Source: Nitrospirota bacterium (GTDB lineage Bacteria > Nitrospirota > Thermodesulfovibrionia > Thermodesulfovibrionales > JdFR-88). From it: a stretch of DNA of 64,000 nucleotides. Location: positions 1 to 64,000 of the forward strand of contig JAKAHV010000012.1 in NCBI GenBank assembly GCA_021825295.1, written 5' to 3'. The first letter of the stretch is position 1; each line of letters opens with the position of its first letter. Below, in pieces: positions 11,084 through 24,086 of this stretch. Made by a program: the position numbers and the translations under genes. The notes under the pieces were generated by a model. That model saw only the letters and a list, made by a program, of their open reading frames with translations. It was not told the DNA's origin and searched no databases.

Positions 11084-13339
11084 ATGAAAATAAGACATAA
11101 ATTGACGGGCGCATTTCTTGTATTCACACTCTGCGTGACGTTTCTTTTTTACTTAAGGGGACTCAGCAGCCAGGACCGGCTGTTCAGGGGCGTGGCCGGC
11201 GAGCGGCTTACGAGGATTGAGCGCTCTTTTTCCGGTCTTGAAGAAAACGACGCCAAAATGCTCCTTGCCACCCTTGAAGCGGTCCGCTGCGACCGGCAAC
11301 TGAAGGCGGCCTACCTGAAGGGCGGCAGGGACGAGCTTTACCGCCGCACGCTGCCGCTTTTCGAGGCCATGAAATCCTCCTACGGCATTACGGACCTCAG
11401 CTTCATTTTGCCCGGCGGCCGCGTTTTCCTGAGAATGGACGACAGGACGCTTTACGGGGACCGGATAAAGACGGCCGCCCTTGAAAAGGCGGGACGAAGC
11501 CTCCTGCCCGCCTGGGACATGGGGACGGGGAGGACCGCCTTTGTCCTGAGGGCCGTGGCGCCGTACTTTGACAGGGGCAGGCTCATAGGATATGTGGCGA
11601 TGTCGGAGGGGATAAACCATTTTCTGGATTCCCTTGAAAAGGAGGAGCCGGGCAGCGAATTTGCCATCCTGGCCGAGAAGAAATACCTTGACCGGGACGA
11701 ATGGCGGCGCATGAGGCGGCAGGCCGGGCTTAGGGACAACTGGAACGACCTGAAGGACCACGTCGTTCTGGCCGCAACCGGAGGCTCCGGCGCGGCCTCG
11801 TGTTTCCCCGGCGCAAGCCTCGAACGGCTGAACTTGAAGAATGGAAACCTCTTCGAGCGGCTCCGAAGCGGCGGCAGGACCTTCATCTGCGGCGGATTCG
11901 GCCTGAAAGGCCCCGGGGGGCGGCCAATCGGCGCGGTCCTGGCGTTAATCGACATCAGCCGGCATGTGGCCCTGGGCAGAAAGGCAAACGAGTCCACGCT
12001 GCTTCTGTCGATATTTTTGTTTCTTGCCACGTTTTCAGCCGGCGTTGCCTTCGCCCGCTATATCACCGGCCCGATCCAGAAGCTGGCGGACGCGGCCAAG
12101 GCAATCGGGAGGGGCGAGCTGGACCGGAGGGTCGGCGTGAGATCATCAGATGAGATAGGAGAGCTTGCCGGCGCGTTCAACGAGATGGCCCAAATGAGAA
12201 AATCCGCCGAAGACGAATTGAGGGGGTGCAGGGACGAGCTTGAGGTGCTTGTCGGGGAGCGCACGCGGGCGCTTGCTGAAAGCGAGGAGCGCTACAGGAC
12301 TATTATCGAGGCCGCCCAGGAGGGAATATGGGTAATGGACGCCGCGGAAAGGATAATTTTTGCCAACGAGAGGATCGCCGGCATGCTGGGCTATGAGAAG
12401 GGACAGCTCCTCGGACGCCCGGTCACCGATTTTATCGACGCGGAGCTTGTCCCGGAATTCCATGCTAGGTGCGAAAGGCGGAAGCAGGGCGTCGCGGAGA
12501 AATTCGATTTCAGGCTGAGGGCCGCCGACGGCTCCGATCTGTGGGTGATCATCTCTTCCAGCCCGAGGTTCGACGCGGACGGGGAATTCCTGGGCTGGAT
12601 ATCGATGATAGTGGACATTACGGAGCGAAGACGGCTGGAATCCATCGCCGAGGCCGCCAACCTGATGGAAAACACCGGGTACATATTCAGCGGGATAAGG
12701 CATGAAATAGCAAACCCCGTGGCCACGGCCATGATCACGCTCAGCGTCCTCAGGAAAAAGATAAAGGATTTCAGGGAGGAACAGATCGGCGAGTACATCG
12801 ACAGGGCGCTCGAGCAGATGTCCAGGCTGGATTTTCTGATTAAATCCCTGAAGAGTTTCAACATGTTCGAGGCCGTGAAGCCCGAAAACGTTGAGCTCTC
12901 CGGATGCATCGAAAAATTCCTGGCCCTTGTAAGGAACGATGCAAAGGTGAAGGGCATAAAAATAGAATATTCCGCCGCGCCTGACACGGGTTGGGCGTAT
13001 ATCGATGAAAGGGCCTTCCAGCAGGTGATGCTGAATATCTTTACAAACGCCATCGACGCCCTTGAGGGGGCGGTCGGCCCCAGGATAAAAATAAGCACGG
13101 CAAGGGTAAAGAAACTGATAATGGTCCGCGTGGAGGACAACGGCAGGGGAATGAACGAAAAACAGGTCAGGGAACTCTTCAAGCCCTTCGCCACCACAAA
13201 GCCCCACGGCACGGGGCTGGGCCTGATGATAGTAAAAAAAATGCTCTCCCGCATGCAGGGCCATATCGAAATAACGAGCGAACTGAATATGGGGACGATG
13301 GTCGACATATTCATTCCCGCAGGCGGGGAAGTTTTTTAA
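11084..13339 (+). CDS. Membrane sensor histidine kinase (periplasmic sensor, HAMP, PAS, HATPase_c)
   Basis: Two TMs; HAMP RYITGPIQKLADAAKAIGRGELDRRV; PAS ESEERYRTIIEAAQEGIWVMDAAERI; HATPase VEDNGRGMNEKQVRELFKPFATTKPHGTGLGLMIVKKM. Confidence 0.92.
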   Translation: MKIRHKLTGAFLVFTLCVTFLFYLRGLSSQDRLFRGVAGERLTRIERSFSGLEENDAKMLLATLEAVRCDRQLKAAYLKGGRDELYRRTLPLFEAMKSSYGITDLSFILPGGRVFLRMDDRTLYGDRIKTAALEKAGRSLLPAWDMGTGRTAFVLRAVAPYFDRGRLIGYVAMSEGINHFLDSLEKEEPGSEFAILAEKKYLDRDEWRRMRRQAGLRDNWNDLKDHVVLAATGGSGAASCFPGASLERLNLKNGNLFERLRSGGRTFICGGFGLKGPGGRPIGAVLALIDISRHVALGRKANESTLLLSIFLFLATFSAGVAFARYITGPIQKLADAAKAIGRGELDRRVGVRSSDEIGELAGAFNEMAQMRKSAEDELRGCRDELEVLVGERTRALAESEERYRTIIEAAQEGIWVMDAAERIIFANERIAGMLGYEKGQLLGRPVTDFIDAELVPEFHARCERRKQGVAEKFDFRLRAADGSDLWVIISSSPRFDADGEFLGWISMIVDITERRRLESIAEAANLMENTGYIFSGIRHEIANPVATAMITLSVLRKKIKDFREEQIGEYIDRALEQMSRLDFLIKSLKSFNMFEAVKPENVELSGCIEKFLALVRNDAKVKGIKIEYSAAPDTGWAYIDERAFQQVMLNIFTNAIDALEGAVGPRIKISTARVKKLIMVRVEDNGRGMNEKQVRELFKPFATTKPHGTGLGLMIVKKMLSRMQGHIEITSELNMGTMVDIFIPAGGEVF

Positions 13340-13389: not shown

Positions 13390-14409
13390 ATGGACTCGTT
13401 TATTTCCTCTTACTGGGGGATGTATGCCGTTCAAACGGTGCTCCACTCAATCATCGCCTCCGCGCTCATCGACTGCGCGTTCATCGCCTGGGACATAAGG
13501 GGGCCGCGCATGACGCAGAGGTTCCGTTTCCTGGTCATTTTTCTGCCCGCCTTCTCGTTTCCCGTCTACCAGTTGATCAGGCCCGGCCGGGGCGGCGTTT
13601 ATTTCAGGCTTGGCAGCCTGCTGGACAGCAACAAGTGGTTTTTTTTCAATTTTTGGGGCGTGCCGGTATTCAGGATGCTGCTTGTCCTGTCGGCCGTCAT
13701 AACAGCGCTTATCTTCATCCTGCAGGAATTCCTGCCCATGGTCGTCCACCTGATGGAGCAGCTCAGGGGGGACGGGGCCGCCGGGGGGCAGCCCGTGGAA
13801 GAGGCCTTTGCCCTGAAGATCGAGGATGCGCTTGAGGGGCTGCCAATCAGGCCCGGCAGCATTTCGGTCCTTGATGACGAGGACCTTGCTCTCTATTCCA
13901 ATACCTGGCGGGACCCGCGTATTTTTGTCTCACGCGGCCTCCTTAGGGTCCTGGACAAGCACCAGTTGCAGGCGGCCCTCGCGCACGAGATCGGCCATAT
14001 CCGCCGCAGCAGAAAGCCCGTGCTTACCATTGCCTACATCGTGAGGGTGCTCATGTTCTACAACCCGGTGGCGATGATAGAATTCAGGAAGCTGGCCCAG
14101 GAGGAGGAAAAGATCTGTGATGACTTCGCGGTTGCGCTCACTGGAAGGCCCCAGGCCCTCCGGGAGGCGGTAGGGATGCTGCGGCCTGAACCGGATGAAA
14201 ACCCGGAGGGCGGGGGCAGCCAGGGCAAAGCGGTTATCCGCAGGGGGGCCCGGGATATCGCGGCGGCCTTCGAGCGGTACAGTCTGGATGCGCTCCTGAA
14301 AAGCAGGCTCCGGAGGATCGGGCCGCCCGCGGAGGACGAGACCCCCTGGGGGGTGCCTTTTGTTATAACCTTTGCCCTGATCGCGGGCATAAACTACTTT
14401 GTCGTGTAG
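13390..14409 (+). CDS. M56/BlaR1-like membrane zinc metallopeptidase
   Basis: HExxH in LQAALAHEIGHIRRSRKP, followed by FYNPVAMIEFRKLAQEEEKICDDFAV (third-ligand region). Several hydrophobic segments. Confidence 0.85.
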   Translation: MDSFISSYWGMYAVQTVLHSIIASALIDCAFIAWDIRGPRMTQRFRFLVIFLPAFSFPVYQLIRPGRGGVYFRLGSLLDSNKWFFFNFWGVPVFRMLLVLSAVITALIFILQEFLPMVVHLMEQLRGDGAAGGQPVEEAFALKIEDALEGLPIRPGSISVLDDEDLALYSNTWRDPRIFVSRGLLRVLDKHQLQAALAHEIGHIRRSRKPVLTIAYIVRVLMFYNPVAMIEFRKLAQEEEKICDDFAVALTGRPQALREAVGMLRPEPDENPEGGGSQGKAVIRRGARDIAAAFERYSLDALLKSRLRRIGPPAEDETPWGVPFVITFALIAGINYFVV

Positions 14410-14418
14410 GCAGGGAAA

Positions 14419-14976
14419 ATGAAAATGCGTCCAGGCGCCGTCAGGATGATCCGAGGCATGGTTTACATGGCCGTGATGGCCGCGGGGGTGGTCGCGTTCC
14501 TGGCGGCGCTGAACTGGTTCCCGTCGCTGGTGCGGCCGGACCTGGCAAGGCGGTACGCCACCGTTGAAGATGCGATGCGGGCCGCGGGCTATCACGGCAT
14601 ACTGGTGCCAAAATATTTTCCCGAAGGGCTCTCCTGGCCCCCGGCCTTCATCTTCGCCCAGAAAAGGCCCTTCAGGGCGGTAGTGCTGGAATTCACAGAG
14701 CCAAAAACGATGCGGACGGCCCTTATAGTGGTCCAGTCCTCCCTGAAGGGCGGCGCCGCCGAAGCCGAAAAGCTCCAGAGAATCCGGTTTGCCCGGATAA
14801 GGGAGCAGACCGGGTACCGTCTTAAGGGAAGAGACGCGGTCCTGCAGGTGGGCATATGCGGCGATGGCAGGCCGTGCTCCAGGATAATCTGGAAGGAAGG
14901 CGGCTTTTATTCCTCCGTCCTCTACATGTCCTATCCTGTCGAGCTGATACGGATAGCTGACAGCATGGTCCGGTAG
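14419..14976 (+). CDS. Uncharacterised single-TM exported-domain protein
   Basis: N-terminal TM (MVYMAVMAAGVVAFLAALNWF) then a soluble domain (GILVPKYFPEGLSWPP...). Starts 10 nt after the M56 peptidase stop. Confidence 0.7.
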   Translation: MKMRPGAVRMIRGMVYMAVMAAGVVAFLAALNWFPSLVRPDLARRYATVEDAMRAAGYHGILVPKYFPEGLSWPPAFIFAQKRPFRAVVLEFTEPKTMRTALIVVQSSLKGGAAEAEKLQRIRFARIREQTGYRLKGRDAVLQVGICGDGRPCSRIIWKEGGFYSSVLYMSYPVELIRIADSMVR

Positions 14977-15142: not shown

Positions 15143-15302
15143 AATTTGGGACTTTTTCAAGCCTGTTTAGGAATTTTTCCCACTGCAAATAGGAAGTATT
15201 TCCAATTTCTATTGCCCGGGCGGGCTGATACCATGAAATTAAGGAAAGGGGAAGATGGCAGGGAAGAGAAAAACCCCGGAGTGGGGAAAGGAGGAATGGA
15301 CA

Positions 15303-15644
15303 ATGATGACGCTGATGATGGTGCAGAACCGGAAGGTCGAAAAAAAAGGCCCGGAGTTCGTTATCAGGAGCCGGGGCGTGAAGGCCGCGCTCATTATCCT
15401 GGCCGTAATCGGGTTTGCGATGTCGGTGGCATTTCCTTACGGCCTGGGATTGGTGGCCTTCGTGGCGTTCATCGCCGTAATAGGGGCGCTCGCCGCGGTG
15501 GGATATGCCTGCTACGGCCTCGTCAGGGACATGCTGGGCAGGACGGCGAGTTTCGGGTATAACCCGGCCACGGCTTACATGACAGGCGCGAAAACAAGGA
15601 AGAAGAGGACGGAAGCCGATCCGGGGGAAGAGGAACGGAAGTAG
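15303..15644 (+). CDS. Small two-TM protein with C-terminal NPATAYMTGAKTRKKR motif (protein A)
   Basis: ORF runs from 15255. AGGAGG-like RBS favours ATG 15303. TM segments around AALIILAVIGFAMSVAFPYGLGLVAFVAFIAVIGALAAVGYACYG. Confidence 0.75.
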   Translation: MMTLMMVQNRKVEKKGPEFVIRSRGVKAALIILAVIGFAMSVAFPYGLGLVAFVAFIAVIGALAAVGYACYGLVRDMLGRTASFGYNPATAYMTGAKTRKKRTEADPGEEERK

Positions 15645-15690
15645 ATGCAGTCGGCAATTTCAGATGGAGGACCGGGAAGGGGGAAAGCCG

Positions 15691-16089
15691 ATGTATAAGG
15701 GAGGAGAAATAGTGGGAAAAGGGCCGTACTGGAGCCCCATGGACGGCCGGAGGGTCGACCTGCGCGAGGCGGGGATGCTGCCCGGGGGCAAGGGCGCCAG
15801 TTTTCTCAGGATCTCGCCGCTTCTTCTTTTTCTGGCCGTTCCCCTTTCCGGGATGATATACGTCATGTTCCTGCCGTTTCTGGGGATAGGCGTGTTCCTG
15901 GTCTCATGGCTTGTGCCGGTCGCCGGCACATTGGTTTCGGCCGCCGCAACCGGCCTGCGCGTCTGCAGCGGCCATGAGCCAAGGAACAAGCCCTCCGCCC
16001 ACAACCCCTCAAGGGCCTATCTGACGGGCGCGGGCAAAAGGGGCGGAAAACACGATGCCCGCTGCAGGACAGGCAGGCGGAAAAAATAA
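15691..16089 (+). CDS. Small two-TM protein with C-terminal NPSRAYLTGAGKRGGK motif (protein B)
   Basis: ORF runs from 15664. ATG 15691 is preceded by GGGAAGGGGG. TMs LLLFLAVPLSGMIYVMFLPFLGIGVFLVSWLVPVAGTLVS. Confidence 0.75.
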   Translation: MYKGGEIVGKGPYWSPMDGRRVDLREAGMLPGGKGASFLRISPLLLFLAVPLSGMIYVMFLPFLGIGVFLVSWLVPVAGTLVSAAATGLRVCSGHEPRNKPSAHNPSRAYLTGAGKRGGKHDARCRTGRRKK

Positions 16090-16151
16090 AGGCGGGCAGA
16101 CGGAAAAAATAACCGGAAAGCGCACGCAAAAAGACAAGGAGGTGTTTCAAG

Positions 16152-16535
16152 ATGCACACACTTTTCGATTTCGTCACCAGCACAAACGCCGCGGAGTACG
16201 GGCTGATGCTCCTTTTCATCCTCGGGTTCATCATCTTTCTGCAGATCATGAGTCCCAGGCCGTTCAAGGGGGCGCTGGAGATGGCCGCGGATGATGTGAA
16301 GTTCCTGAGGTCGCAAAACAGGGTCAGGCTGCTGCGGTTTGCCAGGAACGCCGCGCTGGCGCCCGCATACTTCATGTTCTATCTGGCCGCGCTGCCTTTT
16401 CTCTTTGTCCAGGGCCTGGCCGCGCCGCTGGCCTCCGCCGAGTGGAGCCCCGTGCGGGCCTATTTCACTGGCAGGAAGGCGAGGGGTAAAAAGCCGGATG
16501 AAGACCCTGGCAAGAGGCCGCAGGGCGAAGATTAA
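16152..16535 (+). CDS. Small two-TM protein with C-terminal SPVRAYFTGRKARGKK motif (protein C)
   Basis: AAGGAGG RBS upstream. TMs YGLMLLFILGFIIFLQI and APAYFMFYLAALPFLFVQGLAAPL. Confidence 0.8.
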   Translation: MHTLFDFVTSTNAAEYGLMLLFILGFIIFLQIMSPRPFKGALEMAADDVKFLRSQNRVRLLRFARNAALAPAYFMFYLAALPFLFVQGLAAPLASAEWSPVRAYFTGRKARGKKPDEDPGKRPQGED

Positions 16536-16547
16536 GGGAGGCAAGCG

Positions 16548-17108
16548 ATGAAAATGAATGTGGCGCTTCTTCCGGTCTTTGTTTTTTTGCTTCCGGCGAT
16601 GTTTTTACCGTTCTCACCCGGGCCGGCCGCGTGGGGCGCCGAAAGGCAGTGGAGGGATGTCCCCGGCACCATAGTCATCAACGAGGTGCCTCCCGTCCCC
16701 CGCTCAATCGCCTGGCAGGACAGATTCGGTCCCGTGACATTTGACCACGGGATGCACACGGCCCTCACGAAATGCGGTACATGCCACCACACGCACAGGA
16801 ACATCGCCTATGGGCTCTGCGACAATTGCCACACCCAGGTCCCCGGGCTTTTTGCGGCATCGGCTACCCATATGTTCATGGGCTGCAAATACTGTCACGG
16901 CCAATACTCCCCATCCAAGCCGTGGATGCCGGGACTGAAGACCGCCCTTCACCAGACGTGCTTCGGCTGCCACGTCGGCATCGGAGAACTGGGTGTTTCG
17001 CCGGCCGGGTGCGCGAGGACATGCCATACGGGAAACAACCATACAGGGATAAAAACGGAGAAAACAAAAACCGGCGCAGGAAAGAAGACAGCGCCCCCAA
17101 AGTCATGA
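16548..17108 (+). CDS. Multiheme c-type cytochrome (4 CxxCH plus 1 CxxxCH), cytochrome c3-like
   Basis: Signal peptide. CGTCH, CDNCH, CKYCH, CFGCH and CARTCH motifs. VTFDHGMHTALTKCGTCHHTH resembles class III cytochrome. Confidence 0.88.
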   Translation: MKMNVALLPVFVFLLPAMFLPFSPGPAAWGAERQWRDVPGTIVINEVPPVPRSIAWQDRFGPVTFDHGMHTALTKCGTCHHTHRNIAYGLCDNCHTQVPGLFAASATHMFMGCKYCHGQYSPSKPWMPGLKTALHQTCFGCHVGIGELGVSPAGCARTCHTGNNHTGIKTEKTKTGAGKKTAPPKS

Positions 17109-17153: not shown

Positions 17154-18149
17154 ATGTCTCAGGGTAAGGATAAAAAACACTACAGACGGGATGCATCCGG
17201 GGCGCCGGGCAGGCTCACGAGGAGGAAATTCCTCGGCCTGTCGGCCCTGGCGGGGGCGGCGGCCGTAGGTGCGCCCGTCATTGCCCGCGCCGGCCAGAGG
17301 CAGGGCGCCCCGGAGTTCGGCGGGTGGCCGGGGGCCTACGGCATGCTGTCCGATTTCACCCGGTGCGTGGGCTGCAGGAGCTGCGAGAGGGCTTGCAACG
17401 AGGTCAATCATCTGCCCGTGCCGGAGACGCCTTTTGATGACGCATCGGTCTTCGAGAAGAGCCGGTGGCCCTCGGCCGGGGCCTACACGGTTGTAAACCG
17501 TTACAGGACCACGGACCCATCCAGGCCCGTGATGTACAGGAAAATCCAGTGCAATCATTGCCTGGAGCCCGCATGCGCCACCGCATGCCCCATCCATGCG
17601 TATACGAAGACCCCGGAGGGGCCCGTCCTTTACGACAAGGACCTCTGTTTCGGCTGCAGGTGCTGCGTCATTTCGTGCCCCTTCAATATGCCGGCATACG
17701 ATTACGGAAGCGCCCTTGACGCCAAGATCGTGAAGTGCATCTTCTGCTATCCAAGGATCAAGGAAGGCAAACTGCCCGCGTGCGCGGAGGCCTGCCCGGG
17801 CGGCGCCCTGACCTTCGGCCGCAGGGACGAGCTTCTCAAGGTGGCCAGGGAAAGGATTTCCGGCAACCCCGGCAGATACATAGACCATATCTACGGGGAG
17901 CACGAGGCCGGCGGGACGTCATGGCTTTACCTTTCGAGCGTGCCTTACGAGCAGCTTGGCTTCCCCACCGGGCTTCCGGACAAGCCCCTTGTGGAGCTTG
18001 CGAAGGGTTTTGAATCGAGCGTGCCGGTGATATTCACGACGTTTCCGGCGATATTCGGAATGATATACGGCATAATGCGCGGCAACGAAAAGGCCGCCAG
18101 GGAAGCAGCCAGTAAAGAGGCCGGAGGCGAGGAGGTGCGTCATGGCTGA
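17154..18149 (+). CDS. Tat-exported ferredoxin-like Fe-S subunit (HmcB/HybA/DsrO-type, four 4Fe-4S sites)
   Basis: Tat motif TRRKFLGLSALAGAAAVGAPVIARA. Cys clusters CVGCRSCERAC, CNHCLEPACATACP, CFGCRCCVISCP, CIFCYPRIKEGKLPACAEACP. C-terminal hydrophobic segment. Confidence 0.92.
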   Translation: MSQGKDKKHYRRDASGAPGRLTRRKFLGLSALAGAAAVGAPVIARAGQRQGAPEFGGWPGAYGMLSDFTRCVGCRSCERACNEVNHLPVPETPFDDASVFEKSRWPSAGAYTVVNRYRTTDPSRPVMYRKIQCNHCLEPACATACPIHAYTKTPEGPVLYDKDLCFGCRCCVISCPFNMPAYDYGSALDAKIVKCIFCYPRIKEGKLPACAEACPGGALTFGRRDELLKVARERISGNPGRYIDHIYGEHEAGGTSWLYLSSVPYEQLGFPTGLPDKPLVELAKGFESSVPVIFTTFPAIFGMIYGIMRGNEKAAREAASKEAGGEEVRHG

Positions 18150-19398
18150 GAATCTTGACGATCTCACGCGGGCCACAGCCCCCCCGCGCGTTTTCAGGCA
18201 GTGGTTCATGGACAAGCTTTTCATGGGGATGGGCGTCCGGGAATACTCGCGTTCCATCGCCACGCCGTTTAACCTGGTGGCGGCGCTCATCCTGGCGGCC
18301 TCCGCGCCGGTCTTCTACATTCGTTACGTGCATGGGCTGGCCTCGGTCCTCGATGCGACAAACGAATACCCCTGGGGCCTTCTGCTTTCATGGGGTATCT
18401 TCGCAGGGGAGCCGCTTTACGCCGCCGGGTTCGTGATGGCCGCCTCCTACTACGTGTTCGGCATAAAGAGCTACCGGCCCTTTGTGCGGATAGCGGTGCT
18501 TGGCGGCATGCTGGGATATATATTCGCGGCCTCCTACCTGCTCATAGACCTCGGACGGCCGTGGCGTATATATTACCCGACCATCGTCAATTTCGGGACG
18601 GCCTCGGTCTTGTTCATCATAGCCTGGCACGTCGTCCTCTACATCACCGTCCAGGTGCTGGAATTCTCCCCGGCCCTGCTGGAATGGCTTGGGGCGAAGC
18701 GCCTGCACAGATGGGCGGTCTCGGCGACCCTGGGGCTGGTCATCGGAGGCATAATCCTTTCCACCGTCCACCAGTCTGCGCTTGGCGCCCTTTATCTGAT
18801 GACGCCGGGCAAGGTGCACCCCCTCTGGTATTCCGGGTATCTGCCGGTGCTTTTTTTCAGCTCGGCGGTCTACTGCGCCATATCGTTTGCGATGCTGCTG
18901 ATCTATGCGGGGGTCCGTTATTTCAGGGACAAGTGCGACGACGCATTCCGGCGCGGCTCGACCACGGTGACGCTCGGGCTGGCCAGGGGGGCGGCCATCG
19001 CCATGTACGTTTACTTCGCACTGAAGGTCCTCGCCCTGGCCATGGACAACCGCTGGGCGTACCTCCTTAGCTCCTGGGGGGTCTGGTACCTGGCCGAGCT
19101 GCTGGGTTTCGTGGCCGCGCCGATGGCGCTGTTTACGGCCGCGGTCAGGCGCGCAAGCGCCGGGATGGCGCGTCTTGCCGCGCTCTGGGCGGCGGCGGGG
19201 GTCGTGCTGAACAGGGTCAACGTAAACCTCATCGCCTACAACTGGTATCTGCCCAAACACTTCGAGAGGATCATTCCTCCGGCCACGGAGCTCATCATGA
19301 TTGCGGCGATGATAACCCTTCACATCCTGATCTTCAGGTGGATCGTAAACAGGTTCCCGGTGACCCGGGAGCTGCCCGAATACAGGAGCGCGCACTAA
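18142..19398 (+). CDS. NrfD/PsrC/HmcC-like polytopic membrane subunit
   Basis: Overlaps the Fe-S subunit by 8 nt. About 9-10 TMs with NrfD-type motifs (EYPWGLLLSWGIFAGEPLYAAGF; STVHQSALGALYLMTPGKVHPLWYSGYLPVLFF). Confidence 0.92.
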   Translation: MAENLDDLTRATAPPRVFRQWFMDKLFMGMGVREYSRSIATPFNLVAALILAASAPVFYIRYVHGLASVLDATNEYPWGLLLSWGIFAGEPLYAAGFVMAASYYVFGIKSYRPFVRIAVLGGMLGYIFAASYLLIDLGRPWRIYYPTIVNFGTASVLFIIAWHVVLYITVQVLEFSPALLEWLGAKRLHRWAVSATLGLVIGGIILSTVHQSALGALYLMTPGKVHPLWYSGYLPVLFFSSAVYCAISFAMLLIYAGVRYFRDKCDDAFRRGSTTVTLGLARGAAIAMYVYFALKVLALAMDNRWAYLLSSWGVWYLAELLGFVAAPMALFTAAVRRASAGMARLAALWAAAGVVLNRVNVNLIAYNWYLPKHFERIIPPATELIMIAAMITLHILIFRWIVNRFPVTRELPEYRSAH

Positions 19399-19435: not shown

Positions 19436-20860
19436 ATGAAAGCCTGGTATATGCTCGGTGTTGCCATTATCATCCTCTGTCCGGCGTATCACGCCCGCGC
19501 GGCCCTTGCGCTGCCGCCGTCAGGCGGGGAAAAGCGCTGCCTTGGCTGTCACGGGGCGCAGATGTCCGCCCTGAAATTCCCGGACGGGGACACTTTGAAT
19601 ATGTACGTGGACCCCGAGGCATTCAACAGGTCGGCCCACCGGGGGCTCGGGTGCGGCGGGTGTCATCCGGAATTCGCAAAGGGACGCCATCCTGAGCGTT
19701 TCTTCAGGAGCAAGCTTCAGTACCGGCTGAAGGAATCCGTCAGGTGCCTGGCTTGCCATCCCCGGGGGGCCATCGTGGCCCGGGGCCCCCACGCGGAATT
19801 GTTCAGGCGGCAGAAAAGCGGGGAACCGGTCGTCTGCACCGACTGCCACAGCGCGCATTCCATAAGCGCCTTCGACGGGGGGCGCGGGGAGAGGAGCTAC
19901 TGTCTTGGCTGCCACCTGCGGGACGAGATGATGACTTTCGGCGGCAGGCAGGCCATATCCATACGTGTGGACGTCGCGGAGATCGGCAGGTCGCCCCATA
20001 AGGACCTGGCCTGTTCCGACTGCCACTTCGGTTTCTCGATGGAGGACCATCCCCGCCGCATGTTCGGATCGAAACGGGAATACCTGATCTCCTCCGCCCG
20101 GATTTGCAGGCGGTGCCATTTCGACAAATACGCAAGCTGGGCCGAAAGCGTCCATTACAGCAGACTGGACGAGGGGAGGCTGGATTCCGCCACCTGCATA
20201 GATTGCCACGGCGGCCATGCGGCCTACGCGCTTGGCGCAAACAGGCTTTTGGCGGTATCCAGGTGCGCCGCGTGCCATGCCGGTGTTTACCGTGTATATG
20301 CGGGCAGTGTCCACGGCAGGGCGCTTCTGGCCGGCAACGGCGATGTGCCCATATGCACCGATTGCCACTCATCGCACCAGATCAGGTCCGCCTCCTCAAA
20401 CGGTTTCCATGACGCGGTGCCGGAGATATGCGCGAAATGCCATGGCAACTCCGCCGTCATGGGCCGCTACGGCCTGTCCGCAAGCGTGGTGAAGACCTAT
20501 CTGGCCGACTTCCACGGCCTCACGCTGAGCTTGTACAGGAAGGAGGCCGGCGCCGGCAGCCGTCCGGACAGGCCGATGGCTGTCTGCACGGACTGCCACG
20601 GTGCCCACGATATCGCCTCCGTGTCGGGCGCGGACATACGCACGCTCAAATTGAGGCTGCTGGGCAGGTGCCGCAAATGCCACCCGAATGCGACCGTAAA
20701 CTTCCCCGGCGCCTGGCTCTCCCATTATGAGCCGAGCCTGAAGGCCGCCCCGGCCGTCTTCCTGGTCGGGCTGTTTTATAAAATCATCACGCCGCTCATG
20801 ATACTGGGCCTGCTCGTCCAGATAGTCCTGCACGTGTGGCGTTACCTGGCAAACAGGTAG
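19436..20860 (+). CDS. 13-heme c-type cytochrome with C-terminal TM anchor
   Basis: Thirteen CxxCH motifs counted in the translation. Signal peptide. C-terminal VFLVGLFYKIITPLMILGLLVQIVLHVWRYL. Confidence 0.92.
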   Translation: MKAWYMLGVAIIILCPAYHARAALALPPSGGEKRCLGCHGAQMSALKFPDGDTLNMYVDPEAFNRSAHRGLGCGGCHPEFAKGRHPERFFRSKLQYRLKESVRCLACHPRGAIVARGPHAELFRRQKSGEPVVCTDCHSAHSISAFDGGRGERSYCLGCHLRDEMMTFGGRQAISIRVDVAEIGRSPHKDLACSDCHFGFSMEDHPRRMFGSKREYLISSARICRRCHFDKYASWAESVHYSRLDEGRLDSATCIDCHGGHAAYALGANRLLAVSRCAACHAGVYRVYAGSVHGRALLAGNGDVPICTDCHSSHQIRSASSNGFHDAVPEICAKCHGNSAVMGRYGLSASVVKTYLADFHGLTLSLYRKEAGAGSRPDRPMAVCTDCHGAHDIASVSGADIRTLKLRLLGRCRKCHPNATVNFPGAWLSHYEPSLKAAPAVFLVGLFYKIITPLMILGLLVQIVLHVWRYLANR

Positions 20861-20874
20861 AAAGGGGGGCGTCC

Positions 20875-21600
20875 ATGGTCTCCGGAGAATCATGGGAAAG
20901 CGAAGGACGCACAAGGAGGTTCAGCAATTTCAGGATCGCCGAACACCTTGCGCTTATCGTGCTCTTTTTTTCCCTGGCGGTGACCGGACTCTGCCAGAAA
21001 TTCCACTACCTGGGCGTCTCACAGTTCGTCATCGGGGCGCTTGGGGGGATAGACAGCGCAAGGTCGCTCCACCACATGGCCGGGGTGCTTTTCACGGCCC
21101 TGCTTCTGCAGCACGCCGTCGCTTCCTTTCTGGGCGTGCTCATGTTCCGGTGGAAGCCTTCAATGCTCATTGCGCTGCGGGACGCGCAAGACGCCGTGGC
21201 GGACGTCCGCTACTACCTTGGCATCGAGGAGAGGCCCGCTCCGCAGGGCAGGTTCAGCTACAAGGAAAAATTCATCTACTGGCTTACCTTCCTGGGGGGC
21301 CTCCAGATGATCGCCACCGGCCTTACGCTCTGGTTCCCGGTGGACGCGGCAAGGTACATGCCCGGACAGTTCATAGCCGCGGCAAAGGACATGCACTCCA
21401 GCGACGCGATGCTGCTGTTTCTCATCGTTGTCGTCTGGCACATCTACGATTCGGTGCTCAACCCCGAGGTGTTTCCCCTTGATAAAAGCATATTTACGGG
21501 ATTTCAGGACCCGCGCGCGGAAGGCCGCGGGGAACCCCTTACGCCGCCTGCCGTCAAAAAGGAGGGAGCAAAACCGGTTGATGGAATGGATGCGTTGTAG
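20875..21600 (+). CDS. Di-heme cytochrome b subunit (formate dehydrogenase gamma/cytochrome b561-like)
   Basis: Four TMs with His residues: RIAEHLALIVLFFSLAVTGLCQKF, SLHHMAGVLFTALLLQHAVASF, KFIYWLTFLGGLQMIATGL, HSSDAMLLFLIVVVWHIYDSVLNPEVFP. Confidence 0.88.
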   Translation: MVSGESWESEGRTRRFSNFRIAEHLALIVLFFSLAVTGLCQKFHYLGVSQFVIGALGGIDSARSLHHMAGVLFTALLLQHAVASFLGVLMFRWKPSMLIALRDAQDAVADVRYYLGIEERPAPQGRFSYKEKFIYWLTFLGGLQMIATGLTLWFPVDAARYMPGQFIAAAKDMHSSDAMLLFLIVVVWHIYDSVLNPEVFPLDKSIFTGFQDPRAEGRGEPLTPPAVKKEGAKPVDGMDAL

Positions 21601-21613
21601 TAATTTATGGTAG

Positions 21614-23446
21614 ATGCAGAAGAAGATCATCACCTTCATAATCCTCAATGTTCTCGTAATATCGGCGACCCTCGGGGTGATAAGCTACATCGAGATCAAC
21701 AACAACCTGAGGCTGTCGATGCAAAACAGGCTCGCCCTCGCCCGGATCATCGCAAATCATATCCAGGTCATACTCGATGAAAACCTGAACAGGCTCCACG
21801 ACGTCTCCCTGCTGGGCAAGATCAACATGAAGGACAATGACTGGCGGACCAGGAGGCGGATACTCCAGACGCTGTATGAATATTCGCTCTATACGGAGGG
21901 CGTTTTCCTCCTGGACGAGCACGGCAATGAAATCCTCACATATCCGGAGCACTATGAGTACGCCCCCAACCTCACCTACATAAACGACGTCAACCAGGTG
22001 CTGCAGTCCGGCAGGCCCCTCATCTCCGACATCTACACGCTTGAGCCGATAAGGAAAAAGGTCATATTCATGATGGCCCCGCTCAAGGACAACGACGGGA
22101 GGATCACCGGGGTCATCGGGGGCATGCTCGGCCCAACGGAGCCTTACATAAGCACGCTGCTGCAGTCCAGCCAGATCGGCGGCGACAGCTACATAGAGGT
22201 AATCGACTCCAAGGGGACGATAGTGGCCTCAGACGACCCGAAGCGGGTCTTCCAGAAGCATAACTACGACGGCATCCCGGTCAGCATGATAAGGGACGGC
22301 GAGTCGGGCATCAGGGAGTACAGGCACGCGCATCCCCCCGGCGCCCGGGCGCCGGCGGACATCCTTGCCATTGTCCCCCTGAGCGTGGCCAAGTGGGGCG
22401 TGATCGTGGGGCAGCCGAAAGACGAGCTGTTTGCCCCCGCGGCCGCCCTCAGGAGAAAGTTCACCCTGCTGGTGGTTGTCTTTATCCTGACCGCCGTTTT
22501 CTTCTCCATTGCAACAAGCAGGCATATTGTCAGGCCGCTGAAATCCCTCATATCATCCACCAACAGGATCGCGTCGGGCGACCTCCAGACGCCGGTCGGC
22601 CGCCTGGGAAGCGACGAGATACTGGTGCTCAGCAGGAGCTTCGACGCAATGAGGGAGAAGCTGGCGGACTCCCTCGAGAGGATAAAGACCCATTCCATCC
22701 AGCTTGAAAACCGCGTTGCGAAGAGGACCCACCAGATAAGGCAGAGCAAGCAGAGGATTGAGCACCTGCTGAGGAAGGTCATTTCGTCGCAGGAGGACGA
22801 GCGCAAGCGCATAGCCAGGGGCATCCACGACACCATACTGCAGGACGTCTCCGCGTTTCTGATAAAGCTGGACATATGCAGGCTGCAGCCGGAGCGGGTC
22901 ACGGTCGGCAGGATAGACGAGATGCGGGAGATCGTGATGAAGACCATCGACAACGTCCATGCGGTCATCAAGGACCTCAGGCCCTCGATCCTCGACGATT
23001 TCGGCATCGACGCGGCGGTCATGTGGCTGATGAAAAAACACTTCGCGGAGAAAAAAATCCGTTACGAGCTTCTTGCCGGACCCCTGGCCGGCAGGAGGCT
23101 GCCCCCGCAGATAGAAACGACGCTTTTCCGGATACTGCAGGAGTGCATCATCAATATAGCGCGGCACGCGGGCGCAAGAAACGTCTGCGTGATGATGAGC
23201 GCAAACGAATCCTTCATAGAGATTCTGGTGGAGGACGACGGCAGCGGGTTCGACTTCCAGGAACTGATGGAGCACCCCGCCGAAGACGGCAGGGGCCTTG
23301 GCGTGCTGGGCATGAGGGAGAGGGCCTCCCTCCTTGACGGCGACCTGCAGATATGCTCGCTGCAGGACGAGGGGACCTGGGTATGCGTTCACATTCCTTT
23401 GAAAGCCGAGGTGGAGAATGTCCAAGATACGTGTGTTAATAGCTGA
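21614..23446 (+). CDS. NarX/HisKA_3-type sensor histidine kinase with periplasmic sensor and HAMP
   Basis: TM-flanked Cache-like region; HAMP SRHIVRPLKSLISSTNRIASGDLQTPV; H box DERKRIARGIHDTILQDVSAFLIKL; HATPase VEDDGSGFD...GRGLGVLGMRERASLLDG. Confidence 0.93.
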   Translation: MQKKIITFIILNVLVISATLGVISYIEINNNLRLSMQNRLALARIIANHIQVILDENLNRLHDVSLLGKINMKDNDWRTRRRILQTLYEYSLYTEGVFLLDEHGNEILTYPEHYEYAPNLTYINDVNQVLQSGRPLISDIYTLEPIRKKVIFMMAPLKDNDGRITGVIGGMLGPTEPYISTLLQSSQIGGDSYIEVIDSKGTIVASDDPKRVFQKHNYDGIPVSMIRDGESGIREYRHAHPPGARAPADILAIVPLSVAKWGVIVGQPKDELFAPAAALRRKFTLLVVVFILTAVFFSIATSRHIVRPLKSLISSTNRIASGDLQTPVGRLGSDEILVLSRSFDAMREKLADSLERIKTHSIQLENRVAKRTHQIRQSKQRIEHLLRKVISSQEDERKRIARGIHDTILQDVSAFLIKLDICRLQPERVTVGRIDEMREIVMKTIDNVHAVIKDLRPSILDDFGIDAAVMWLMKKHFAEKKIRYELLAGPLAGRRLPPQIETTLFRILQECIINIARHAGARNVCVMMSANESFIEILVEDDGSGFDFQELMEHPAEDGRGLGVLGMRERASLLDGDLQICSLQDEGTWVCVHIPLKAEVENVQDTCVNS

Positions 23447-24086
23447 CGACCACGCGCTGGTGAGGGAGGGGATTGCCGCCCTGCTGAGGCTCTCGGGCGA
23501 CATTGAAGTCGTGGGCGAGGCCTCAGACGGCATAGAGGCGGTGGAGCGCGCAAAAAAGGACAACCCCGATGTGGTCCTGATGGACATAGGCATGCCCAGG
23601 CTGGGCGGCCTGGAGGCCACCCTGGAGATCAAGAAGACCGTCCCCAACCTGAAGATAATCGTGCTCACACAGTACGACGACAGGGAGTATATCGCCCGCT
23701 TTCTGAAGGCCGGCATCACGGGCTACCTGCTGAAGAAGGCGGTGGGCAGCGAGCTGGTCAACGCGATCAGGGCGGTCCACCGGGGGGAGGTCTACCTGTT
23801 TTCCTCAATCGCGGCGGATGTCGTCGCCGGATACCTGGGCAAGGAGAAGATGCCCGCAGCCGACGACCCCTACGAGAGGTTGACTGACAGGGAGCGCCAG
23901 GTGCTGAAACTTCTGGCGGAGGGTTTCAGCCACAAGGAGATCGCCCAGTGCCTGAACATCAGCGTCAAGACCGTGACCGCGCACCAGACCAACATCTCGG
24001 AGAAGCTGGATATGCACTCGCGCGCGGCCCTTATCAGGTTTGCAATCTCGAAGGGCATAGTGAAGGTCGACGTCCCCCCGGACTAG
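23418..24086 (+). CDS. NarL/FixJ family response regulator
   Basis: Receiver IRVLIADDHALVREGIAALL...DVVLMDIGMP; LuxR-type HTH LTDRERQVLKLLAEGFSHKEIAQCLNISVKTVTAHQTNISEKL. Overlaps the kinase gene by 29 nt. Confidence 0.95.
   Translation: MSKIRVLIADDHALVREGIAALLRLSGDIEVVGEASDGIEAVERAKKDNPDVVLMDIGMPRLGGLEATLEIKKTVPNLKIIVLTQYDDREYIARFLKAGITGYLLKKAVGSELVNAIRAVHRGEVYLFSSIAADVVAGYLGKEKMPAADDPYERLTDRERQVLKLLAEGFSHKEIAQCLNISVKTVTAHQTNISEKLDMHSRAALIRFAISKGIVKVDVPPD

Follow-up and report, generated by a model that had tools for sequence, protein, structure and literature searches.

An unnamed family of small membrane proteins encoded in a multiheme cytochrome operon of Nitrospirota

Gene content of the locus

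The window analyzed here, a stretch of 64,000 nucleotides of contig JAKAHV010000012.1 from a Nitrospirota bacterium (GenBank assembly GCA_021825295.1), encodes three consecutive small proteins, designated A, B, and C, directly ahead of a set of cytochrome, Fe-S protein, and membrane subunit genes that ends with a sensor histidine kinase (HK) and a response regulator (RR) (Table 1). The parts of this operon are variants of known respiratory modules. The cytochrome next to C has the five heme motifs assigned to it in the initial annotation, but these comprise four CxxCH motifs and one CxxxCH. A second sensor kinase, with the dCache_3-HAMP-PAS domain architecture (window positions 11084 to 13339), is encoded directly upstream of the M56 protease gene. 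The probable starts of A and B were judged by homologs and ribosome-binding sites: A has a ggagg at 15290, and its part conserved in the congener begins with MMT, whereas B would begin with MYKGG.

TABLE 1 Features of the A/B/C locus (positions in the window)
Feature	Position	Strand	Basis and remarks
M56-type (BlaR1-like) membrane metalloprotease, HExxH present as HEIGH	13390..14409	+	PF05569, 34.9 bits (cutoff 31); PF01435, 35.4 bits, also above cutoff
p185, one TM helix, no known family	14419..14976	+	No Pfam match; always paired with the M56 gene (synteny)
Tandem operator, TAGGAATTTTTCCC and TAGGAAGTATTTCC, 22 bp apart	15168..15203	+	Exact core found just once in the genome; conserved ahead of first B-type genes
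Candidate -10 element TACCAT (family, TATnnT)	15229..15234	+	Alignment of 77 upstream regions
A, B-type paralog with degenerate N-terminal domain	15255..15644	+	Likely true start, 15303
A, helix-plus-tail domain	15414..15608	+	Tail, 15561-15608; alignment and profile match (73 bits)
B, beta domain, helix, and tail	15664..16089	+	Likely true start, 15691
B, helix-plus-tail domain	15856..16050	+	Tail, 16003-16050; alignment and profile
C, HmcD-like N terminus, helix, and tail	16152..16535	+	NF045712; AlphaFold2
C, helix-plus-tail domain	16299..16493	+	Tail, 16446-16493; alignment and profile
5-heme cytochrome, class III type	16548..17108	+	PF02085, 36.2 bits
HmcB/HybA-like Fe-S subunit, Tat signal	17154..18149	+	NF045715, 382 bits (below cutoff, 420)
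HmcC/HybB-like NrfD-type membrane subunit	18142..19398	+	NF045714, 369 bits (below cutoff, 550); PF03916, 50 bits (cutoff 25.8)
13-heme cytochrome, C-terminal TM helix	19436..20860	+	Pfam search and sequence comparison
b561/FdnI-type membrane cytochrome b	20836..21600	+	PF01292, 57 bits
Sensor kinase, Cache-HAMP-HisKA_3	21614..23446	+	Domain search
LuxR/NarL-type response regulator, candidate operator reader	23418..24086	+	PF00072, PF00196; role suggested by linkage

A domain shared by A, B, and C

The ungapped 16-residue tails for which the three small ORFs had been singled out are present as described, and homologs in many genomes carry the tail as well; the motif was placed at the C terminus but sits 11 to 13 residues before the true C termini. 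The likeness also extends further than had been thought: the transmembrane (TM) regions, taken to be otherwise dissimilar, belong to a domain of ~65 residues, including a hydrophobic helix and a spacer, that aligns across all three proteins. Single-sequence phmmer searches match A with C and A with B, and a profile built from 38 helix-plus-tail segments (E ≤ 0.001) finds exactly three proteins in the 2.89-Mb genome, A, B, and C, at 73, 60, and 41 bits. Because the profile retrieves nothing else from this genome and the tail recurs in homologs from many others, the tail likeness exceeds chance. The proposed signature was [NS]PxxAYxTGxxxR, but the family consensus is xW[RST]PxxAY[LFM]xG followed by K/R, with no conservation of the T in TG. 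Family tails are of the FGWRPxEAYLxGKKK type; the A and B proteins of the window are divergent copies that lack the typical W. The helix has the consensus APFxGLxYVxxLPF. As to the two TM segments attributed to each protein, AlphaFold2 predicts two long hydrophobic helices for C, but the assignment is doubtful for A and B, since the model of a B-type protein has a single long helix.

Whole-gene dN/dS values between the window and its congener are 0.23 for A, 0.18 for B, and 0.18 for C, next to 0.19 for the HmcB-like and 0.22 for the HmcC-like gene; judged by these ratios, A, B, and C are under purifying selection.

As the initial annotation had suspected, none of the libraries searched has a name for this protein family: Pfam, NCBIfam, PHROG, PDB, and Foldseek gave no relative of A, B, or C. 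Searches of the profile libraries with the three proteins and central family members returned nothing above a cutoff; the best E value was 0.26 in the PDB sequence search, and the Foldseek fold searches reached 0.088 (PDB) and 0.67 (viral). Aspartate decarboxylase and SecY were dropped as candidate relatives (E above 0.2), and an isolated PHROG match of just one C relative (E of 9e-4) was disregarded. Four tiny ORFs that seemed to consist of the tail only (L109 to L112) are genes cut at contig ends. No description of the operon was found among the titles and abstracts that searches of the open literature listed, which is weak evidence of absence.

Two subtypes of the family

In the B type (67 aligned sequences), an N-terminal part of ~42 residues with the signature GGxxVxKGTYWN...GxRV...EGxLPG is followed by one long helix and the tail. 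The AlphaFold2 model of one member has four short N-terminal strands (pLDDT, ~95), a helix at residues 45 to 91, and a short helix in the tail motif. The alignment shows A to be a paralog of B whose beta domain has degenerated: its counterparts in three other loci (L033, L142, and L140) retain the full N-terminal domain, and a tree places A in a small clade of B-type sequences. The C proteins stand apart in this tree of 153 leaves, where a 46-member clade holds 44 of them, although with 63 alignment columns the support is limited. At some level, 18 of 20 C relatives match the HmcD model NF045712 (best E, 5.4e-6); C from the window does so at positions 2 to 29 of 38 with 16.4 bits, below the equivalog cutoff of 34. 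Charge statistics favor a cytoplasmic tail for the B-type proteins (net charge of +4.4 in the tail and +1.9 in the N-terminal domain) and are equivocal for C (+3.8 in the loop and +3.2 in the tail).

Operon forms and distribution

The long form of the operon, M56-p185-B(1 to 4 copies)-C-cyt5-HmcB-HmcC-cyt13-cytb-HK-RR, is found at ~40 distinct loci. Precisely this gene set, with a single B, is present at 13 of them; the rest carry additional copies of B or are truncated where the fetched DNA or the contig ends. The short form, M56-p185-B-cyt13-cytb-HK-RR, at ~15 loci, is devoid of C and of the Hmc-like genes, and C is restricted to the long operon except at five loci, two of them cut at contig ends. 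Thus, B goes with the 13-heme cytochrome/cytochrome b module and C with the Hmc-like module. The M56-p185 pair is an upstream unit kept beside both forms; almost every complete operon has it ahead of B. One c-type heme motif (CHRCH or CHQCH) is found late in the periplasmic part of 29 of 42 relatives of the operon kinase (e.g., L041:13491-15359); the copy in the window has none. The kinase is probably a heme-based sensor whose heme motif, as the sequences suggest, was lost in the sublineage of the window.

The shared domain is present in 65 of the 396 sampled Nitrospirota genomes and the 13-heme cytochrome in 64, with both in 62 (Fisher's test, 4e-66, a value that overstates the evidence, as the genomes are related). 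Named matches come mostly from Nitrospirota metagenome genomes, including Thermodesulfovibrionales and UBA9217; others are labeled Deltaproteobacteria (a few), Deferribacterales (one), or Actinomycetota (one bin) and may reflect transfer or misbinning. The domain is absent from g14, the genus of relatives with closed small genomes.

The initial annotation would have abandoned its view of A, B, and C if their homologs were not found near redox clusters. The operon copies are so placed, but ~45 B-type loci are solitary, with no operon partner beside them and no widely recurrent neighbor, and as many as four of them occur in some genomes. Among these solitary copies, DNA similarity sets in ~50 to 220 bp before the gene and may continue to ~60 bp past it. 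Most of these loci carry the tandem-type operator described below, and the genomes checked also have the 13-heme operon; in the family richest in solitary B genes, the kinase and 13-heme genes are found in 12 of 12 genomes. Three of those 12 (G064, G073, and G103) have a 13-heme operon without an adjacent B; loci L273, L275, and L276 are operons of this B-less kind. Since the genomes are related, neither locus nor genome counts are independent.

A tandem operator upstream of B-type genes

The DNA upstream of B-type genes contains the core TAGGAA-N4-TTCC, often in two copies 22 to 23 bp apart; in the alignment of upstream regions, TATnnTnnAATCA comes after it with almost constant spacing. With at most one mismatch, the core precedes 78 of the 93 first B-type genes that have enough upstream DNA, solitary ones included, and the exact core precedes 34 of them; the expectation is 0.044 and 0.007 per gene, respectively, although these related sequences are not independent events. 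The element is found before 1 of 15 inner B genes and 6 of 41 C genes. In the genome of the window, the exact element occurs once, at 15190, before A, versus 12 times for the reversed control. An extension, NAATT, did no better genome-wide than its reversed control, so our claim is limited to the core and the tandem spacing. Exactly or with one mismatch, the element is also found ahead of 13-heme genes in B-less operons (L274, L280, and L281). The TACCAT element would serve as the promoter of A; a generic sigma-70 scan did not call it. The linkage suggests that the operator is probably read by the LuxR/NarL-type RR that ends the operon.

The exact tandem pattern has 10 matches in the 396 genomes, nine of them at B-type genes. 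The tenth (L297/L300, G328:C34:54684-54719) lies before a Cys-rich ORF of 50 to 60 residues, a gene for an exported protein, and an FeoB-like start, and these genes may also belong to the regulon. We considered a riboswitch as well in the conserved DNA upstream of the genes but rejected it: the sole Rfam match, a c-di-GMP-I riboswitch (L096:12365-12456, 60 bits) near one of two solitary B genes, is on the minus strand, opposite to the nearby B gene.

Comparison with known systems

Short membrane proteins of the NapE/TorE and CydX type are, like A, B, and C, encoded in operons of respiratory enzymes; unlike them, the B-type proteins, which have no profile match to these families, add a beta domain, a conserved basic tail, and dispersed copies. 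The cytochrome-HmcB-like-HmcC-like gene order is that of the Hmc complex of sulfate reducers (HmcA-F), and Hmc models are the best NCBIfam matches of the HmcB- and HmcC-like proteins, though below the equivalog cutoffs (Table 1). The position of HmcA, with 16 hemes by the name of its model, is taken by a 5-heme protein that scores 39.5 of 400 bits. C resembles the small subunit HmcD in its N terminus but has an extra helix and the tail, and its gene precedes the cytochrome gene; the genes that follow in the window, for the 13-heme cytochrome, cytochrome b, HK, and RR, also differ from those of Hmc. With all Hmc models below cutoff and different genes following, we refer to this module as Hmc-like and not as Hmc.

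The 13-heme cytochrome and cytochrome b resemble CbcL, MtoC, and MtrH (PMC9129911, PMC6295460) in layout, namely, in the combination of a periplasmic multiheme part with a HydC/FdnI-type membrane cytochrome b. These carry a multiheme c domain and a six-helix diheme b domain on a single polypeptide, whereas the window has two genes, and there are 13 hemes as opposed to nine in CbcL of G. sulfurreducens. A fusion of the two was seen only in L033 (11576-13768), as one 730-aa protein with a CbcL-like layout. The upstream M56 protease has the HExxH motif of the BlaR1-type enzymes and scores above cutoff, but its partner is p185 instead of a BlaI-type repressor.

Possible functions of the family

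The reading that we favor, slightly more likely than not when taken jointly with the docking and regulation scheme given here, is that A, B, and C serve a Nitrospirota menaquinol:multiheme-cytochrome oxidoreductase as small accessory, or adaptor, subunits in the membrane. The initial annotation had proposed accessory subunits of the redox complex, which synteny, co-occurrence in genomes, and the shared operator support well. The enzyme would combine two modules that react with quinone, with electrons presumably passing from menaquinol to the multiheme cytochromes. One module would be Hmc-like and consist of the 5-heme cytochrome, the Tat-exported Fe-S protein, and the NrfD-type subunit; the other would be CbcL-like and consist of the 13-heme cytochrome and the b561-type cytochrome b. 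C would take the place of HmcD in the former, and B, with its degenerate paralog A, would accompany the latter. The shared helix and the basic WxPxxAYxxG tail could let each protein enter the membrane next to the same partner and bind to it, the membrane cytochrome being the most plausible candidate; the modules would thereby stay connected. The promoter before A, under the dedicated tandem operator, would be the start point of transcription, and the operon-ending RR would probably read the operator.

The adaptor reading draws on the presence of B in the short operons and of C next to cyt5-HmcB-HmcC in the long ones. The HmcD-like N terminus of C, the purifying selection, and the B-type genes found ahead of other multiheme genes also speak for it. 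The solitary B loci and the B-less 13-heme operons count against a fixed subunit; they imply no need for B to be encoded together with the complex, and a loosely bound or transient partner would fit equally well. B and C could instead be assembly or maturation factors that are absent from the finished enzyme and help for a time to insert the large cytochromes into the membrane, load them with heme, or stabilize them, with the basic tail recruiting a common assembly machine. Such factors could well be encoded first in the operon, ahead of the cytochromes, have dispersed extra copies under the same operator, and vary in number (1 to 4 B copies) beside one set of redox subunits; the HmcD-like N terminus of C, however, points to a subunit, and C is tied to one module, which makes the assembly role possible but on the unlikely side.

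A regulatory role is improbable in our view: the linked M56 protease, with p185, would read or cut the tails, and B and C would report the state of the complex, in the way that BlaR1-type proteases act on a cytoplasmic partner. The nearly constant place of M56-p185 before B in complete operons of both forms, the intact HEIGH motif, and the above-cutoff family match fit this idea, but solitary B genes have no adjacent M56 gene, and M56-p185 persists beside B-less operons. The notion of the initial annotation that the three genes might be a diverged triplication, neutral or nearly so, with selection at the tail only, has very little left in its favor. The low overall identity of A, B, and C and the lineage-specific copy number agree with it, but domain-wide conservation of the helix and of the B-type beta domain contradicts it, and the dN/dS values, the conserved operator, and the distinct C clade with its HmcD-like N terminus speak against it.

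The pairing of Hmc-like and CbcL-like quinone modules in one operon appears to be undescribed. With operon partners and an operator defined, these uncharacterized proteins of about one-sixth of the sampled Nitrospirota genomes, many of them from uncultured groundwater and sediment bacteria, now form a testable family. The short operon tells the roles of B and C apart ahead of any experiment, and the regulon can be used to find further electron-transfer genes.

Other gene arrangements

A few B-type genes precede other multiheme genes: a second type of 13-heme gene (L100, L132, and L154), a 5-heme gene (L093 and L094), and an 8-heme gene (L096). A broader conjecture, which we regard as rather unlikely, is that B-type proteins are dispersed, coregulated membrane adaptors with their own operator that plug 13-, 8-, and 5-heme cytochromes into a shared quinol-oxidizing hub. 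A sensor kinase with heme would control this hub, and the whole would be a modular electron-transfer system that Nitrospirota have and that a few other lineages acquired. Genome G026 has three near-identical 3' parts of C genes (96 to 99% DNA identity) at contig ends (L051, L052, and L053), and the Hmc-like operon follows only one of the three.
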